A stretch of DNA of 64,000 nucleotides, taken from Methanoregula boonei 6A8. Lineage in GTDB: Archaea > Halobacteriota > Methanomicrobia > Methanomicrobiales > Methanospirillaceae. Each line of letters begins with the position of its first letter. Positions within the stretch are counted from its first letter, which is position 1. Below the pieces are notes generated by a model. It saw only the letters and a list, made by a program, of their open reading frames with translations, was not told where the DNA came from and did no database searches. Both the position numbers and the translations under genes were made by a program. The DNA is taken from the NCBI RefSeq assembly GCF_000017625.1, contig NC_009712.1:1922001-1986000 (forward strand), in the 5' to 3' direction. This document shows, piece after piece, positions 21,569 through 52,526 of this stretch.

Positions 21569-22128
21569 TTTGTGGTAAAGAGATGGTACTTGACGTCCTT
21601 GTCCTGCAGTTCTTCGAGGATACGGGCCTCGATCATCTTCTCCGGGTGGGGCAGCGATTTGATCCGGGTGGAGATATCTGCGAAGCTCTCGAAAGGCTTG
21701 CGGTTTCGCGACTCAAGCACCTCCCACATCAGTTTCTTCCCGATGCCGGGCAGAAGGTGGAGCATGTGGAGTTTGGGGGTGATCGAGATCGCCTTGTTAA
21801 AGAAAGTGACAAAGTCCTGTTCGCGCTCCTTTACCACCTGCTCGACCATAAACGGCAGCTCTCCCTTTGCCGTGGGAGTCAGTTCTTCGTACCCGATCCG
21901 GCGTTTCACCCGCTCGATCTTGTCCCTTTCAGAGTCCCCGATATACATCTTGTCATGCAGGTTGATGACCACACCGGGTTTGGGGATCAGCTCGAGCAGT
22001 TTGAACTGCTCAAGGCCCATTGCCTGGATAACCGGTTCACGCTTGAACTGGGGCCGGGGATCCCCGGCATGCCCTTTCATGAGCACGTCCAGTACGATCG
22101 CGTTGACCTCTTTCTTCTCGGCCTTCAT
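21565..22128 (-). CDS. DUF655 RNA-binding protein
   Basis: 187 aa. An OB-like N-terminal half (VNAIVLDVLMKGH..., LIPKPGVVINLHDKMYIG) is followed by a helix-hairpin-helix (LHLLPGIGKKLMWEVLESR). DUF655 is archaeal and almost always sits between rpoF and rsmA, as here. The start at 22128 follows a GGGGTG ribosome site; an in-frame GTG at 22137 is the alternative. Presumed role in RNA processing, not demonstrated. Confidence 0.93.
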   Translation of the reverse strand: MKAEKKEVNAIVLDVLMKGHAGDPRPQFKREPVIQAMGLEQFKLLELIPKPGVVINLHDKMYIGDSERDKIERVKRRIGYEELTPTAKGELPFMVEQVVKEREQDFVTFFNKAISITPKLHMLHLLPGIGKKLMWEVLESRNRKPFESFADISTRIKSLPHPEKMIEARILEELQDKDVKYHLFTTK

Positions 22129-44399: not shown

Positions 44400-45449
44400 T
44401 CAGATGAAGAACCGGAAGGTGACCCACGCGACAATCAGCATGATCGCGGAGTATTTGAGCCCGGCAATGACCCGGCCTTCGCCCATCTGCCCGGCGCAGA
44501 GGCCAGAGAAAAAGCCTTGGATCATAGCCGCATGGGAGAACAGGCGCTTATAGGCCGGGAGATCAATTCGTCCCATGAATTTGCTGCTTGCCGCGGTTAC
44601 TTGGGCGGCCGTCCCTGCGGTTGCCATGGTGCTCAGGAAAGAGCTTACGAGCACCGCGATAACAAACAGGAATACGGTAAATGAGACAATCACGATGATC
44701 ACGTAAATCAGCATGTTGTTCCGGCGTTCCTGGGCAAGATTGACCACCTCAAAGGTATCGTTTGCCGCCGCACGGAGCACTTCGCTGATGTCCCCGCCGG
44801 CCTTGCTTGCCTTGGCAATCAGGTCAACACTCCGGTCGGCAAGCGGGGTCCCCAGGCTTTTCCCAAACCGGTACAGGGCTTCGACAAAACCGACTCCCCA
44901 TGACATCTCGTTATCGAGTTTTCTGATATGGGGGGACAGGGTACCGTATTCCGCCCCTGCCACCAGGTGGACCGCGTTTGGCAGGGTCATACCGGAATCA
45001 TTCATGCCGGCAAGATCACGGAAGAAGTTGGGGAGTGCGGTCTCCAGGTTCCGCATCCGTGATTGTTCCCGGAAATCGAGGACTGCCACCGGGATGATGG
45101 AAATGAGCACCGCCGCAACGGCAAAATCATCAATCACGGTTGAGTTGAAGAGCACGGAGATGCCGTACATCTTCACCATCGAGATAAATCCACCAACAAA
45201 AACGATAAGTGACAGGGGGACGCAGACAATAAGGATATTCTCGGGCTTTTCCACGAGCACCTTGAGCGGGTGCTTAAGAAAACGCCCGATCCCTTCCCGG
45301 CTCTTGCGTTCCGTATCCAGCCTGCCGGAAATATCGCTCAGTTCCTTTTCCACGGAATCCATCTCGCTTTTGGAAAGCGGTGGCGGGGCTTGGGAGAGAG
45401 GATCTTTTTCTTTTCCAAGAATGCCCTTTAATCTATCGTTGAATGCCAT
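44400..45449 (-). CDS. TadC/FlaJ-like membrane component of type IV pilus-type machine
   Basis: 349 aa. Three or four transmembrane helices (about 70-95, 110-130, 260-285, 330-349) flanking a T2SSF-type cytoplasmic domain (LPNFFRDLAGMNDSGMTLPNAVHLV ... DNEMSWGVGFVEALYRFGKSLGTPLADRSVDLI). In archaeal pili and archaella this subunit is the platform that the ATPase acts on. Preceded 3' to 5' by a second, split FlaJ-like gene and the ATPase, so two platform proteins are encoded, as in Tad systems. Confidence 0.88.
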   Translation of the reverse strand: MAFNDRLKGILGKEKDPLSQAPPPLSKSEMDSVEKELSDISGRLDTERKSREGIGRFLKHPLKVLVEKPENILIVCVPLSLIVFVGGFISMVKMYGISVLFNSTVIDDFAVAAVLISIIPVAVLDFREQSRMRNLETALPNFFRDLAGMNDSGMTLPNAVHLVAGAEYGTLSPHIRKLDNEMSWGVGFVEALYRFGKSLGTPLADRSVDLIAKASKAGGDISEVLRAAANDTFEVVNLAQERRNNMLIYVIIVIVSFTVFLFVIAVLVSSFLSTMATAGTAAQVTAASSKFMGRIDLPAYKRLFSHAAMIQGFFSGLCAGQMGEGRVIAGLKYSAIMLIVAWVTFRFFI

Positions 45450-45451
45450 AA

Positions 45452-46375
45452 TTAGGACTCCGGGGTCATGGAACTGATCATGATGATAAACATCATCGTA
45501 CCGAAGGGAATCATGAGGTAGATAACGACATAGAGAAATATCGGTTTTGAATCCCCACCCAGCACCGACATGATGGACTGGAGGATGATCAAAAAGAGCG
45601 TACCTGCCACCATCGCCGTCACGTAGGACTCCGAAATCAGGGCAAGCGTATCCAGGAAGAGTTTCTGGGTCTGGCGGTTCTCCAGGGCATACTGAGCAGC
45701 TTTTGTCCGGAAATACTCGGTGAGATTTCCCCCGCTCGATATGCTTGCCATTGCACCCTGCAGGAATTCCTTCATCCGCAGGGAAGGTGTACTCGAGGAA
45801 ACGATCCGGAGGGCATCGATAAGGTCTCGCCCGAAGATATCGAGCTCCCGGGCTATGTAACGGGCCTCCACGGAACTTTCACCATATATCGGGCTGTCCC
45901 CGAGCAGGCGGAAGATCTCTGCCGGTGTGATACCGGCCGTGGACATAGAGGTGATGTAGTTGATCGCGTAGGGCAGGGTCGCGTCAATATTCCGGCGTCG
46001 GTTCCCGGCGACAACAGAAGGATATGCAATAAAAATTGCATACGTGATCCCCCCAAAAACCAGAAGCGAGAAGACCACCACAAAGATAGTCCCGAGAAGG
46101 ACGCCGTACTGGTTGAGGAAAAGCATCGTTGCCGGGACTTCACCTTTGTAGTGTATCAGGTTGGGGAGTTTTAAGGCCTATGTGATAAGACCCAGGAAGA
46201 CCGCCGAAATCAGACCAACAAGGATGGAACTGACAACCGCAGTGGAGATATATACCTCAAACGGGGTCTTGAGCCGGGCCGAGATGATATCGTTCCGGAG
46301 CTGGGCGTACTGCTCCCGTTTTGACTTCATCCTCATACCCAGAAGGTTGAAGCAGAACCGCTCGAAACTATTCAT
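45452..46375 (-). CDS. Second TadC/FlaJ-like membrane component, interrupted by an in-frame TAG
   Basis: Reading from ATG 46375: MNSFERFCFNLLGMRMKSKR... VGLISAVFLGLIT, then TAG (46178-46180), then in the same frame 17 sense codons and MLFLNQYGVLLGTIFVVVFSLLVFG, continuing through the T2SSF core (ATLPYAINYITSMSTAGITPAEIFRLLGDS) and two C-terminal helices to a normal stop. The combined frame is 306 residues plus the amber, the standard size. The N-part (65 aa) and C-part (224 aa) would be useless alone unless the amber is suppressed, read through, or translation restarts at ATG 46126. Overlaps the ATPase end by 8 nt. Confidence 0.75.
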
Positions 46376-48806
46376 ATAGATCCTTCCTTACGCGCTCTAC
46401 AACCACTTCGGGCTCACGGAAGTACGAGATAAGGATCTTTGCTACATCCTTGTAGTGCCGGATCTTCTTGATACGCATCCACTCCAGCACCTCCTGCCTG
46501 CGTTTGAGTTCTTCCCGCATACGGTTCTCGTTCCAGCCCCGCGCCTCCATGATGTCCTCAAGGATGTAAGATTTCCCCGAGTAGGTGATCTCATCGGTTG
46601 CCGATCGCCAGCGGAAGACCTCGTTTGTGATCAGTTCGTTTGTCCGCGGATCGATATCGAGGATCTCAACAATCTGCTTGTTCCGGCGGATCCGTTTCCC
46701 GCCCATCCGGGCCTGTACCTGGACACAGATGAAATCGAGCGCGGAGAGCATATTCCGTGGTACGTCCATGGGCGGGTTCTCGATACGGTGCACGACGCTC
46801 GCAACAGAGTCGGCGTGAGTTGTGGAGTAGGTAACGTGGCCCGTGCTCATTGCCTGGAAAAGTGTCTGGCATTCCTTACCTCTAACCTCACCGACGATGA
46901 TGTACTCGGGCCGCTGACGCATAGCCGCACGGAGCAACTCATACATGTTGATCTCTCCTCTGCCGGCGGTGTCAAATGAGTCACGCGTGACACTCGGGAT
47001 CCAGTTCGGGTGAGGAAGCTTGACTTCACGGGTATCCTCCAGAGAGACAATCTTTGCCATCGGGGGAATGAAAAGCGAGATTGCATTGAGGGCAGTAGTC
47101 TTCCCGGACGCGGTCCCACCGGCAAAGATAGCGGACTTGCCATTCTCGACGCAGAGCCATATGTAAGCGATCGAGAGCGGGGCAAAGGTGTGCCATTCAA
47201 TGAGATCGGTAGGGGTAATTGGCTCGTCCTTGAACTTACGGATAGTGAATGTCGAGCCGTGCGCAGTGACCTCCTGCCCCAGTGTCATCTGGATACGGGA
47301 TCCATCCTGCATGGTCGCATCGAGAATGGGCTCGGCAATGGAGATGTACTTGCCTGCCCTTTGTGCGAGCTTGGTGACAAAGGAGTCGAGCTCCTCGGCA
47401 TTGTGGTACATCAGGGTGGTCTTCATTGACTCGTAATTGGCATGGAAGGCAAAGAGAGGGGTGTTGACCCCGTCGCAGGAGATATCCTCGATATACTTGT
47501 CATGCATGATCGCATCGATCATGCCATCACCCAGAAAGTCCTTGTGCATGTTATAGAGGATCTTCTCACGTTCCACCGGGTTGAGCTTGATTCCGTAATC
47601 CGCCAGAATCTCATCAACCGAACGACGGAGCTGGCTGCGGGCCTCCTCTTTGGAAATGTCCTTGGTGTTGATGTCAAGGATCTCAAAAAGGCGTTCCTTT
47701 AACTCCTTTAACAGGTCTTTCTCTGGCTCCGAGAGTACAGGTTCGAGAACCTGGTAGGTATATTCATGGGTGGAATGGTCATAGATGACCCGGACATATG
47801 CATAGGGATCGTTGACGGGGTACGTATCCATCACTTCGATACCGGGTTTTGGCTCAAAGGTGAGATCGACGAGAGGTCCATGGATCTTGGGATCGTATTC
47901 CACGTTCTCCGACCGGATCGCGCTGAAGAGTGCACTAAACCAGGATTTCTTTTCTGTCCCCTTATCCGTCCCCTTGTCTGCAAGGGTCAGTTCTGATTCA
48001 AGGTCCTTGAAACCGGATGTGGAAAACTCCCTTTTCCAGATCTCGGCAAGTTCCGGGGGAAGGCTACCGGTTCCGGTGGACTCAAACGCCTGCATCCGGC
48101 CATGAAGATTGATCTCATCAACATGGAATGTCGCACCTTTGGGGAGAATAAGACCGGAAAATTCGGATATCTGGTCAGCGGAAATAATCCGCTCATCAGA
48201 TTCGGTCACCGCGGATTTCCCGATCTGATCTGTCGGGGCTCCCACTTTTTCGGCCTTCTTTTTCTTGAAAAACCGGGACGTGCGATTCTCGCGGGGATCT
48301 TCCTCTTCAGTAATTTCGACAACTTGTTCCGGGGGTAACTCTGATTCCGGGGAGGCTGTAAGAGGCTCCGGGGAGTGCGCCGACGGGGGGACCATCTCCG
48401 GTTGTCCCATGATCTTGCCCAGTGCCGCGCGAACATCGTCCCCGCTTAGTACCGGGGGTTCTACACCTTCTTGCGCCGGGGGGACATCTTCGAGAAGCTC
48501 ATCGAAAGTATCCAGCTCTTCAGGTTTACCGGTTGCTTCTTTCGGGAATTGTACGGGCTCATCCGGGGTGGGGAGGGATTCCGGAACTACCTCTTGAGGA
48601 GGGGTACCGGCATTCATGCCAAGCTTTTTTATCAGTGCCGAGAAATCACCCGGGCTTCCATCTCCAGCACTTCCGTCCTCTCCCTGCGTCGCCGGAGGAG
48701 GCGCGGCTACCGGCGCCTCAGGTGTACTGCCCGGTGCCTGGATACCCCGTATCTTTTTGAGAAGATTGCTTACACTGTCCTGATCCTCGTCATCCTTTGG
48801 TTTCAA
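46368..48806 (-). CDS. Type II/IV secretion system ATPase (GspE/TadA/FlaI-like)
   Basis: 812 aa. Residues 1-230 are an acidic, Pro-rich, probably disordered extension. The catalytic domain has Walker A GGTASGKTTAL near 560, the Asp box VSLEDTREVKLP, Walker B IIVGEVRG near 635, and the His box GHVTYSTTHADSV. It powers pilus assembly with the two downstream platform proteins. The start codon is TTG (48806); the ATG upstream opens only an 8-codon frame (MKTGGHPA) that ends over the TTG, a possible leader peptide. Confidence 0.93.
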   Translation of the reverse strand: MKPKDDEDQDSVSNLLKKIRGIQAPGSTPEAPVAAPPPATQGEDGSAGDGSPGDFSALIKKLGMNAGTPPQEVVPESLPTPDEPVQFPKEATGKPEELDTFDELLEDVPPAQEGVEPPVLSGDDVRAALGKIMGQPEMVPPSAHSPEPLTASPESELPPEQVVEITEEEDPRENRTSRFFKKKKAEKVGAPTDQIGKSAVTESDERIISADQISEFSGLILPKGATFHVDEINLHGRMQAFESTGTGSLPPELAEIWKREFSTSGFKDLESELTLADKGTDKGTEKKSWFSALFSAIRSENVEYDPKIHGPLVDLTFEPKPGIEVMDTYPVNDPYAYVRVIYDHSTHEYTYQVLEPVLSEPEKDLLKELKERLFEILDINTKDISKEEARSQLRRSVDEILADYGIKLNPVEREKILYNMHKDFLGDGMIDAIMHDKYIEDISCDGVNTPLFAFHANYESMKTTLMYHNAEELDSFVTKLAQRAGKYISIAEPILDATMQDGSRIQMTLGQEVTAHGSTFTIRKFKDEPITPTDLIEWHTFAPLSIAYIWLCVENGKSAIFAGGTASGKTTALNAISLFIPPMAKIVSLEDTREVKLPHPNWIPSVTRDSFDTAGRGEINMYELLRAAMRQRPEYIIVGEVRGKECQTLFQAMSTGHVTYSTTHADSVASVVHRIENPPMDVPRNMLSALDFICVQVQARMGGKRIRRNKQIVEILDIDPRTNELITNEVFRWRSATDEITYSGKSYILEDIMEARGWNENRMREELKRRQEVLEWMRIKKIRHYKDVAKILISYFREPEVVVERVRKDLYE

Positions 48807-48947: not shown

Positions 48948-49685
48948 TCAGGAATGTCCAGCCTCGTGCTGGAGACTCCTGATAAGTACCCGGAGGAGAC
49001 CGAGTTGGGCATCAGATCGGGCAATGATACAAAGGCAAAGATCCCCGAATGGTGAGATGATGAACTTGTTCTCTGCGGTTTCAAGAATCAGCTGATCAGG
49101 CCGGCCAAGACTCATATCAAGGGCAATAGTGGTTCCCGTCCGGAGGAGGTCCTCTGCCCGTGCGGCAACGTGCTCGAAATCCGCATTGCCTCGGGAAATT
49201 ACCGGGAATCCCTCATAGAAGGCGGAAACGGCTACAACGCCCGGTTGTGCCATAATCTTTGTGAGGGTTGCCTCATCCAAATTACCTGAAGGCTGACGGG
49301 GTACTTGTGTGCTCTCGTAAAGAGGGGGAGGAGATTTCTGCACTACCGGGGCTGATCCGATAAAGAGCTGGCGTTCTGTACACCGATCTAGTGCTTCTGC
49401 AAAATCCTTATCCGAATAAGGTCTCAGGGCAAACTGCTGTTGGTTCGGGTCGCTCCCTCCCGCAGGTGTTGCCATGATGTACCTGAGTGCGGCATCTCCC
49501 CGATACATCTGCTCCTTATCCTCAAAACAGGCTGCCACCAGTTCGCCGTTACGCATCAGGATGAACCCCTTTCCGCGGTCGGTTTCCACCTCAATTAACC
49601 CTTTAAAGCCCCTAAGGTTCTCAAGAGTGTCACCCTTCCGGGGATCGAGAGCGATACCCCCTTGTGTTCCTGCCGGCATTTTCAT
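48948..49685 (-). CDS. Sensor-like protein: small N-terminal domain plus roadblock/LC7 domain
   Basis: 245 aa. N-part (about 20-75: LENLRGFKGLIEVETDRGKGFILMRNGELVAACFEDKEQMYRGDAAL) resembles DUF4388/DUF2226-like modules and recurs in two neighbours. A Pro-rich linker (about 120-145) leads to a roadblock/LC7-type C-domain (ATLTKIMAQPGVVAVSAFYEGFPVISRGNADFEHVAARAEDLLRTG). The latter often binds small GTPases or ParA-type ATPases. It lies upstream of the pilus genes on the same strand. Confidence 0.75.
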   Translation of the reverse strand: MKMPAGTQGGIALDPRKGDTLENLRGFKGLIEVETDRGKGFILMRNGELVAACFEDKEQMYRGDAALRYIMATPAGGSDPNQQQFALRPYSDKDFAEALDRCTERQLFIGSAPVVQKSPPPLYESTQVPRQPSGNLDEATLTKIMAQPGVVAVSAFYEGFPVISRGNADFEHVAARAEDLLRTGTTIALDMSLGRPDQLILETAENKFIISPFGDLCLCIIARSDAQLGLLRVLIRSLQHEAGHS

Positions 49686-49710
49686 AAAAAAAAGCCCAAT
49701 AAAGAGTGGT

Positions 49711-50058
49711 CTAAAGGGCCGCAACAATGCGTTCCTTGTTCTTCTTTAATTCATAACGGATTCTACCGATATTTGCAGTTGTATCTGCGACAAGTGCTAT
49801 CAGTTCATCTGCGGATAAAGGTGCAAGAATAATAGGCCCTTTTTCCAATTCGACCAGCATCTGGGAAAGCTCGCCTTTCCCGAGGGTATTACCCATTGCT
49901 TCTGATGTCCCAAGGCCGGTCGATGCCATAGCTCCCAGCGCCTCGATATCTACCTTACCGGATACGGCGCTTTCTATTACAAATCCGTCCCTCCCCACCA
50001 CAACTGCCGCCGATACGCCTTCAACTCTCAGAAATTCATCTAATAACGGCTTGAGCAT
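49711..50058 (-). CDS. Roadblock/LC7 domain protein
   Basis: 115 aa, single domain: LLDEFLRVEGVSAAVVVGRDGFVIESAVSGKVDIEALGAMASTGLG... SQMLVELEKGPIILAPLSADELIALVADTTANIGRIRYEL. This is the MglB/roadblock fold, usually a dimer that acts as GTPase activator or positioning factor. A GGTGAGAT ribosome site is just before the ATG. Next to a second roadblock-containing gene. Confidence 0.92.
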   Translation of the reverse strand: MLKPLLDEFLRVEGVSAAVVVGRDGFVIESAVSGKVDIEALGAMASTGLGTSEAMGNTLGKGELSQMLVELEKGPIILAPLSADELIALVADTTANIGRIRYELKKNKERIVAAL

Positions 50059-50323
50059 TATCTCACCATTTAATAATTGTGACTTTCTTGTTTTTTTCCT
50101 ATTAAAATGTTGGGATCATTTTCCATAAGAATGCCACAAAATAGCCTTTAAAAACCAAAAAAAACCCTCATTTGTGGCGCAAAAATCGGAAAAATGACCT
50201 ACCTCAAGGTAAGGTGAGAAAACAAATACAGGTGGCTCCGTTTGGCATTGTCTGAAACCGGGGATACCTGACCGGATTGTGCAAAAAGAAACTATATACT
50301 GGAATGCAATCATTAGAGAGATC
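50059..50323. promoter_or_regulatory. Divergent promoter region in the pilus/sensor cluster
   Basis: 265 nt between the roadblock gene (minus) and the next sensor gene (plus). A TATA-like CTATATACTGG at about 50291-50301 fits near-leaderless transcription from ATG 50324. AT-rich tracts near 50060-50110 serve the minus strand. This is the control centre from which the two halves of the cluster diverge. Confidence 0.45.
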
Positions 50324-51055
50324 ATGCAATTACCCCGGGGGACATTCCGCGAGATCCAGAAGAGCCGGAAAGCCCGTGAGATCCTCACGGAGCTGGAGCG
50401 GAGCCGGTTTAGCGGGATCTGCAGTATTTCCTGCCCCGATGGTATCTGTACGCTTGTTTTCCATACGGGAAAATCCATTCTTGCAGAATACAACACGGCA
50501 AAGGGCGATGCTGCGCTCGAAAGCCTCTTTGCTTCCTTTGAGGAGGAGGCTGTGGACGCTGCGCTCTCCACGCTTGATGAGGCCCAGATCCGGTTATCTC
50601 TTGAATTTAACAAACGCGAACAAGTCGTTTCCCCTAATCCTTCCCGAAAACAGGAAAAACCGGTGCACCCGGATATCCTCCCTGCCCACCCTGCACCGAG
50701 AGTTCTCGCAAAGAAAACCAGCCCCGCACCAACAGCAGGCAATCCCCCCCCCGGCAGCGAAGTCACAAGGCTGATAACACACCCCGTGGAGAAAACACCC
50801 CGACCACCATTAGCAGGCCCTAGAAATCCTATCGTAGGGCCACCACCATTGATCCGGGCAGAAAAAATACATGTACAAAAAGAAGAGCTGACGGAGCCGG
50901 TACCTCCCTCAAAAGAGAGCGGGAAAACCTCACTTGAGAGCGATCTGGACACGCTGGATTCCATGAATCTCGACCAGGTCAAAAGTAAGATCCGGGATGA
51001 ATGCAAGACCATGGTCAAGCATCTCAAGCTGGATCATCTCATGGACAAGGATTAA
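50324..51055 (+). CDS. Sensor-like protein with small N-terminal domain and Pro-rich linker
   Basis: 243 aa. N-domain (about 1-85): LPRGTFREIQKSRKAREILTELERSRFSGICSISCPDGICTLVFHTGKSILAEYNTAKGDAALESL, resembling that of two neighbours. The middle (about 105-195) is Pro-rich and low complexity. The C-terminal helix is Lys/Asp-rich (LDQVKSKIRDECKTMVKHLKLDHLMDKD). No membrane segment. The TATA box and the downstream neighbour on the same strand indicate an operon. Function inferred as a signalling partner. Confidence 0.7.
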   Translation: MQLPRGTFREIQKSRKAREILTELERSRFSGICSISCPDGICTLVFHTGKSILAEYNTAKGDAALESLFASFEEEAVDAALSTLDEAQIRLSLEFNKREQVVSPNPSRKQEKPVHPDILPAHPAPRVLAKKTSPAPTAGNPPPGSEVTRLITHPVEKTPRPPLAGPRNPIVGPPPLIRAEKIHVQKEELTEPVPPSKESGKTSLESDLDTLDSMNLDQVKSKIRDECKTMVKHLKLDHLMDKD

Positions 51056-51081
51056 CTACCCCTTACGTGGTGATACCAACG

Positions 51082-51645
51082 ATGCCTGACCTGCCCTCTC
51101 TGAGAATTATTCTTTTGCTTGCCGGGGGATTGCTCATCCTCTGCATTGCAGCGTGGTTCCTCGCAGGGAAACGTCGGCGCGGAGTAAAGAGATTGGCCTC
51201 TGCCATCAGTTTGGACCCCAACCGGTCACCGCTCCGGGTGCAGAAAGTCCCGTTCCGGAGTACTGAAGATCCTGCCAATCCCGACAAGATCACAGATGCC
51301 ACGTCCCACAAGGAAGAGACAGACTGCGTCAACAAACAGAGGGATCTTGCCGGGAGCCTGGATGCCCTTGCAAAGAAATATTCCCTGGACGAAATTATCC
51401 TTGCCACGGCGGACGGCCTTTTGCTTGCCTCGTCCCGGAACGCTCCACCGGCAGGAGATATTGCACGATACACAGGAATGTTTGCTGAAAACATCCAGCC
51501 CCGGCCACCTGGGATCATCCTCTTTGGTCTGGAGTACAAGGGTTCGCATCTTGTAGGAATCGCCAGGGGAAGAGATCTGCTGATCCAGGAGCCCGATCCG
51601 GATATGGTACGCGAGACAAAAGCTATTTTAAACAGGTGGATATAA
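51082..51645 (+). CDS. Membrane-anchored roadblock-like protein
   Basis: 187 aa. One N-terminal transmembrane helix (LRIILLLAGGLLILCIAAWFLAG, about 7-29), a basic patch KRRRGVKRL, a disordered segment, then a roadblock/LC7-like domain (LDALAKKYSLDEIILATADGLLLASS ... YTGMFAENIQPRPPGIILFGLEYKGSHLVGIARG). An earlier in-frame start overlaps the previous gene and lacks a signal. It could tether the signalling module to the membrane. Confidence 0.75.
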   Translation: MPDLPSLRIILLLAGGLLILCIAAWFLAGKRRRGVKRLASAISLDPNRSPLRVQKVPFRSTEDPANPDKITDATSHKEETDCVNKQRDLAGSLDALAKKYSLDEIILATADGLLLASSRNAPPAGDIARYTGMFAENIQPRPPGIILFGLEYKGSHLVGIARGRDLLIQEPDPDMVRETKAILNRWI

Positions 51646-51725
51646 CACGAATATGAAACACATAAATAAAATATTCCACAATACGTATATTTACACAGGA
51701 TAATATTCAGGACGACAGGTGTTTG

Positions 51726-52526
51726 ATGGTCAAGGTATATACGATTGCATCCGGAAAAGGGGGTACAGGAAAAACCACCGTTTCTGTTAACCTCGGAACA
51801 ATGCTTGCCAAGATGGGTAAAGAGACCTATCTGATGGACGCCGATATCGGGATGGCAAACGTCGGACTAATCCTGGGATTGCAGGATGCACCGGTCACCC
51901 TTCATGAAATTCTTGCCGGAAAAAACAATATCGATGAGGGTATCTACACGGGCCCGGCCGGGCTCAAGGTTATCCCAAGCGGCATCTCGCTCCAGGGCTT
52001 CCAGCAGGCAGACCCGGACAAAATCCGCGACGTTATGTCGGAAATCGTAAAACGGTGCGAATTCCTCCTGATCGATGCACCTGCCGGCATCAGTAAGGAT
52101 GGGGTCGTCCCGCTCGCGGTTGCCGATGAGGTCATCCTCGTGGTCAACCCCGAACTCTCGTCCATTGTCGATGCACTCAAGACCAAGATCCTGACAGAAG
52201 TGGTCGGCGGCCATGTGCTTGGCTCCATTATCAACCGGGTGGACCAGGACAAAAGCGATGTCATCTCACGGAAGATGGAAAAAGTCCTCGGGGTAAAAGT
52301 CCTCGGAATCATACCTGAAGATTCTAATGTCAGGAGAGCAGCAGCAGCCCGCTCTCCAATAGTAGTCTCCTACCCGGACTCACCTGCATCAAAGGCAATC
52401 CACCGGATAGCCGCAGACCTTATCGGGGTGTCATACAAGGACGAGACCCCGGCGGTGGCCAAGCGCGAAGGATTCATTGACCGTTTCTCAAAGGCACTCT
52501 TCAAGAAGAAATCGGATAAGAAATAA
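51726..52526 (+). CDS. minD: MinD/ParA-family ATPase
   Basis: 266 aa. Deviant Walker A KGGTGKTTVSVNLGTML (about 11-27), DADIGMANVGLILGLQ (switch I), the switch II motif LIDAPAGISKDGVVPL, and KMEKVLGVKVLGIIPEDSNVRRAAAARSPIV. A C-terminal amphipathic helix (RFSKALFKKKS) can bind membrane. Start ATG at 51726, just after an AGGTG; TATA-like ATAAATAAAATA upstream. Probable positioning factor for the pilus or sensors. Confidence 0.9.
   Translation: MVKVYTIASGKGGTGKTTVSVNLGTMLAKMGKETYLMDADIGMANVGLILGLQDAPVTLHEILAGKNNIDEGIYTGPAGLKVIPSGISLQGFQQADPDKIRDVMSEIVKRCEFLLIDAPAGISKDGVVPLAVADEVILVVNPELSSIVDALKTKILTEVVGGHVLGSIINRVDQDKSDVISRKMEKVLGVKVLGIIPEDSNVRRAAAARSPIVVSYPDSPASKAIHRIAADLIGVSYKDETPAVAKREGFIDRFSKALFKKKSDKK

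Follow-up and report, generated by a model that had tools for sequence, protein, structure and literature searches.

We have found that the gene for a pilus platform protein in the reference sequence of Methanoregula boonei 6A8 is interrupted by an in-frame TAG at codon 66, and the best explanation, which we consider probable, is a very recent nonsense mutation (TGG to TAG; W66) in the 6A8 lineage or culture. The gene, termed platform gene 1 here, lies in a window of 64,000 nucleotides (i.e., the whole stretch of DNA analysed; NC_009712.1, positions 1,922,001 to 1,986,000), and all coordinates refer to this window unless stated otherwise (Table 1). The interruption is real in the reference sequence: minus-strand translation of 45452–46375 yields, from the ATG at 46375, 306 sense residues and one internal TAG, after which the frame continues for 241 sense codons to a TAA at 45452–45454. 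The 17 codons between the TAG and a downstream ATG at 46126 encode ALKLPNLIHYKGEVPAT. A preliminary description of the region had placed both halves in one frame, separated by the TAG and 17 sense codons, and had ascribed the FlaJ/TadC layout to the joined chain of 306 residues; translation bears out the former, and the domain match, the hydrophobic segments and the orthologues described below bear out the latter.

Table 1. Features of the pilus operon and of the interrupted platform gene 1 (window coordinates).
Feature	Positions	Strand	Basis
FlaI/PilB3-like secretion ATPase, first operon gene, ends in TAG	46368–48806	minus	PF00437 match
Platform gene 1, encoding a TadC/FlaJ-type protein (PF00482); read-through length 307 codons	45452–46375	minus	T2SSF match, four hydrophobic segments, end-to-end orthologues
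N-terminal piece, 65 codons, holds first membrane helix	46181–46375	minus	No family match when alone
In-frame TAG, codon 66; TGG (Trp) in close orthologues	46178–46180	minus	Translation and orthologue comparison
17 sense codons from TAG to possible restart ATG	46127–46177	minus	Translation
Modest RNA hairpin over ATG 46126 region, z -2.0	46080–46149	minus	Folding score
224-codon ORF from ATG 46126, T2SSF domain and membrane helices 2–4; possible restart product	45452–46126	minus	
Platform protein 2 gene (T2SSF), intact	44400–45449	minus	Domain match

The read-through product belongs to the archaeal platform proteins of the TadC/FlaJ type. The chain matches T2SSF (PF00482) over residues 138–265 with 53.7 bits (cut-off 25.2) and has four hydrophobic segments, at residues ~46–64, 92–110, 254–272 and 283–301, W66 lying where the first membrane helix ends. 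Orthologues align with it over its full length, at 64–87% identity, which implies that the frame is more than chance; the named relatives recovered by protein search come from Methanoregula and other Methanomicrobiales. The NCBIfam ArlJ score is far under the cut-off (90 bits versus 550), and platform protein 1 is therefore not an archaellum ArlJ equivalog. A structure model of low confidence (mean pLDDT 60) ranked the cytoplasmic domains of EpsF, PilC and OutF at the top, with E values of 0.36 or worse, and a sequence search of solved structures with platform protein 1 returned no match.

A secretion ATPase (T2SSE/FlaI-like) is encoded directly upstream in a tight operon, where its gene overlaps the platform 1 frame by eight bases and two bases separate the end of the latter from platform gene 2. 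The best NCBIfam match of this ATPase is archaellum FlaI, albeit under the cut-off of that model. Modules consisting of an ATPase and two TadC proteins are known from euryarchaeal type IV pili (PMC4858521), and the M. boonei gene resembles the archaeal TadC/FlaJ (ArlJ) platform genes described there in its T2SSF domain, its four hydrophobic segments and its operon partners, a gene for a FlaI/PilB3-like ATPase and another TadC gene; it differs in that the frame is broken at codon 66, in that genome only. Upstream of the pilus operon, the section 48948–52526 includes two Roadblock/LC7-type genes, oriented like the operon, and a divergent gene set, the last member of which encodes a MinD-family ATPase; these neighbours may serve the pilus machine in regulation or positioning.

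Comparison with orthologues, which the preliminary description had proposed as a check, identified a sense codon at position 66 in 100 out of 100 records (drawn from two collections, with some genomes present in both): TGG in 61, Tyr (TAC/TAT) in 28 and Phe (TTT/TTC) in 11. TGG stands in every relative of 80% identity or more, so that a single G-to-A transition accounts for the stop. The TAG is private to M. boonei 6A8, no relative having a stop there, and the ancestral residue was thus tryptophan. Among 39 Methanoregula genomes, just one other has a stop in platform gene 1, at a different codon.

Apart from the stop, platform gene 1 shows no damage. Pairwise dN/dS to close relatives is ~0.07–0.12, with much the same level on either side of the stop, and intact relatives compared with one another give comparable values; we found no second stop or indel in the gene. 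At 148 otherwise invariant columns, M. boonei is changed at none (other members at 0–5), versus some 65–163 changes expected had the gene been unconstrained over its whole terminal branch, a rough estimate for which the synonymous length of that branch was taken as 0.2–0.5, with synonymous sites near saturation. Constraint could, therefore, have been lost for at most ~2–5% of the terminal branch, which excludes an old pseudogene, and the mutation, if real, must be very young. The intact frame is still compatible with a mutation of very recent date, with an error in the sequence or with a protein that works. As in a typical nonsense-interrupted pseudogene, there is a single in-frame stop, found in no orthologue and differing from the ancestral codon by one base, and no decoding machinery was detected; unlike in such pseudogenes, neither relaxed selection nor further decay is seen, so that a reference error looks the same at the level of sequence.

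If, as we infer, the reference base is correct, a single G-to-A change would very recently have turned the conserved TGG codon 66 into TAG in the 6A8 lineage or culture. Translation should then end after 65 residues, by which platform protein 1 would not be made, and the module of one ATPase and two platform proteins would fail; in the strain that was sequenced, it is probably inactive. Against this stands the intact frame, which would be expected equally well from an error in the sequence or from a product that still functions.

That loss of the module can be tolerated is suggested by its state elsewhere. One Methanoregula metagenome-assembled genome (MAG; L065:3001-3921, L093) has a TAG at codon 22 of platform gene 1, although lesions in MAGs may be assembly errors, and a single-contig 1.9-Mb Methanoregula genome (G054, L110) shows a frameshift in the ATPase gene and a deletion that spans its junction with platform gene 1 and takes away the first part of the latter. 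M. boonei itself harbours a further, intact copy of the ATPase gene (689 amino acids; 74% identical to the window copy over 694 columns) on the minus strand at genome positions ~1557549–1559618. Downstream of it, ~36 codons are left of platform gene 1, and there is no platform 2 gene in the 8 kb examined; this locus (~1557449–1559618; L195:3450-5619) is apparently an orphaned duplicate of the same module. With damage in two other Methanoregula genomes and a second copy devoid of platform genes, loss seems to be tolerated, which favours simple inactivation. The MAG also has an internal TGA in its match to another platform paralogue.

The strongest competitor of a recent mutation, which we hold to be possible but clearly less probable, is a mistake of base calling or consensus building in the reference genome; the codon would then be TGG in the living cell, and the gene intact. 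The perfectly preserved remainder of the gene would be as expected, the lesion is private to one sequence, and the genome dates from 2007 (‘Candidatus Methanoregula boonei’ CP000780; 2,542,943 bases; JGI sequencing; PMC2040194). The difference is, however, a substitution and not a homopolymer indel. Finished genomes in general have few base errors of the substitution type. A pseudogene, here by nonsense mutation, and a sequencing error, both listed in the preliminary description, are the two ordinary explanations that stand.

Another proposal is that translation stops at the TAG and restarts at ATG 46126, and that the resulting pieces of 65 and 224 residues, or the larger alone, keep some function. 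The ATG is in the same frame, 51 bases past the stop, with a GGTGA 13 bases upstream, and the larger piece retains the T2SSF domain and three membrane helices; restart may indeed occur at some level. But the spacing of the GGTGA is poor and the same bases encode part of a conserved KGE stretch, while the modest hairpin may cover the restart region. Moreover, Met84 (i.e., ATG 46126) is common only to the nearest relative (87% identity; partial contig), the gene of which is uninterrupted, with TGG at codon 66, so that an evolved two-gene arrangement is not supported. The orthologues are single chains, none of them split in the codon 66 region, and two independently conserved genes with separate starts, the case named in the preliminary description as contradicting a split gene, were not seen; a conserved two-gene organisation is rejected on these grounds. 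Altogether, we regard a functional two-piece protein as improbable.

Both remaining explanations call for decoding of the amber codon, and we have sought signs of it in the window and in the genome. TAG ends 6 of the 53 long non-overlapping ORFs in the window, the upstream ATPase gene among them, in agreement with the earlier remark that TAG is a normal stop elsewhere in the window and that this argues against global amber recoding. We have surveyed in-frame interruptions by alignment to the syntenic regions of five relatives, using non-overlapping relative ORFs since antisense shadow ORFs swamped the unfiltered version: over the part of the window for which syntenic homologues exist (63%), the codon 66 TAG is the sole clean in-frame interruption. 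The few other matches in this survey (21713–21955 and 30774) were taken, by position alone, as shadows of opposite-strand genes. Nothing in the window points to general amber recoding.

Among 39 Methanoregula genomes, M. boonei included, none has a match above the cut-off of the pyrrolysyl-tRNA synthetase (PylS) model, which was passed in one of 14 control genomes, presumably that of Methanosarcina acetivorans. The sub-cut-off matches in the M. boonei genome resemble SepRS and PheRS (the sequences being judged by eye), and a PylC-like protein was not found in that genome. One published study reports PylS from no archaea but Methanosarcinales among those it surveyed, and its table is without pylS for M. 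boonei (PMC3037878).

A census of the genome yielded 44 tRNA genes, none with a CUA anticodon; tRNA-Trp and tRNA-Tyr are missing from it, probably because of introns. Pattern scans for CUA tRNAs, in which the gaps could hold introns, returned nothing but ordinary tRNA genes and unrelated chance sites, none of them recognised by ARAGORN with introns allowed; the pattern presumes a normal T-loop, a feature that tRNA-Pyl is without. On the strength of the census and the scans, a suppressor tRNA was rejected. Rfam identified no recoding element at the stop site, its one match there being sub-threshold and irrelevant. The census also includes four tRNA-Cys(GCA) genes (L141, L142, L147, L148), in an archaeal genome apparently also carrying SepRS.

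Functional read-through would imply that a near-cognate tRNA (e.g., Trp or Tyr) decodes UAG often enough for full-length platform protein. The downstream frame is fully conserved, and Trp, Tyr and Phe are all accepted at the site in relatives, so that several misreadings would give a working protein. Yet no suppressor tRNA or Rfam recoding element was found, TAG is a normal stop nearby and the stop is conserved in no relative. The novel read-through envisaged in the preliminary description is left without positive support beyond the intact downstream frame, which is equally expected with a recent stop or an error, and we consider it very unlikely; the case in which a near-cognate tRNA efficiently places an aromatic residue at the UAG, giving a functional full-length protein without pyrrolysine machinery, is likewise very unlikely.

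Insertion of pyrrolysine, likewise among the options first listed, would suit a methanogen host and a TAG codon, but it is effectively excluded by the lack of PylS over the cut-off (39/39 genomes of the genus), of a PylC-like protein and of a CUA tRNA, by the published table and by a consensus residue that is aromatic, not lysine-like. The pyrrolysine-containing methylamine methyltransferase genes (mtmB, mtbB and mttB) resemble platform gene 1 in that they, too, are methanogen genes in which the frame holds an internal TAG and is conserved beyond it; they encode unrelated proteins, and for platform gene 1 the TAG is not conserved among orthologues, the consensus residue at the stop is aromatic and no pyl genes were found.

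Were efficient near-cognate reading true, platform gene 1 would represent stop-codon read-through in an archaeal membrane protein; on the present evidence, archaea have one candidate fewer for amber recoding without pyrrolysine. If the mutation is indeed recent, it would amount to the ordinary loss of a surface structure. The pilus module in M. boonei 6A8 is probably non-functional, or it is wrongly sequenced, so that a lack of such pili in the 6A8 culture should not be extended to the genus Methanoregula.
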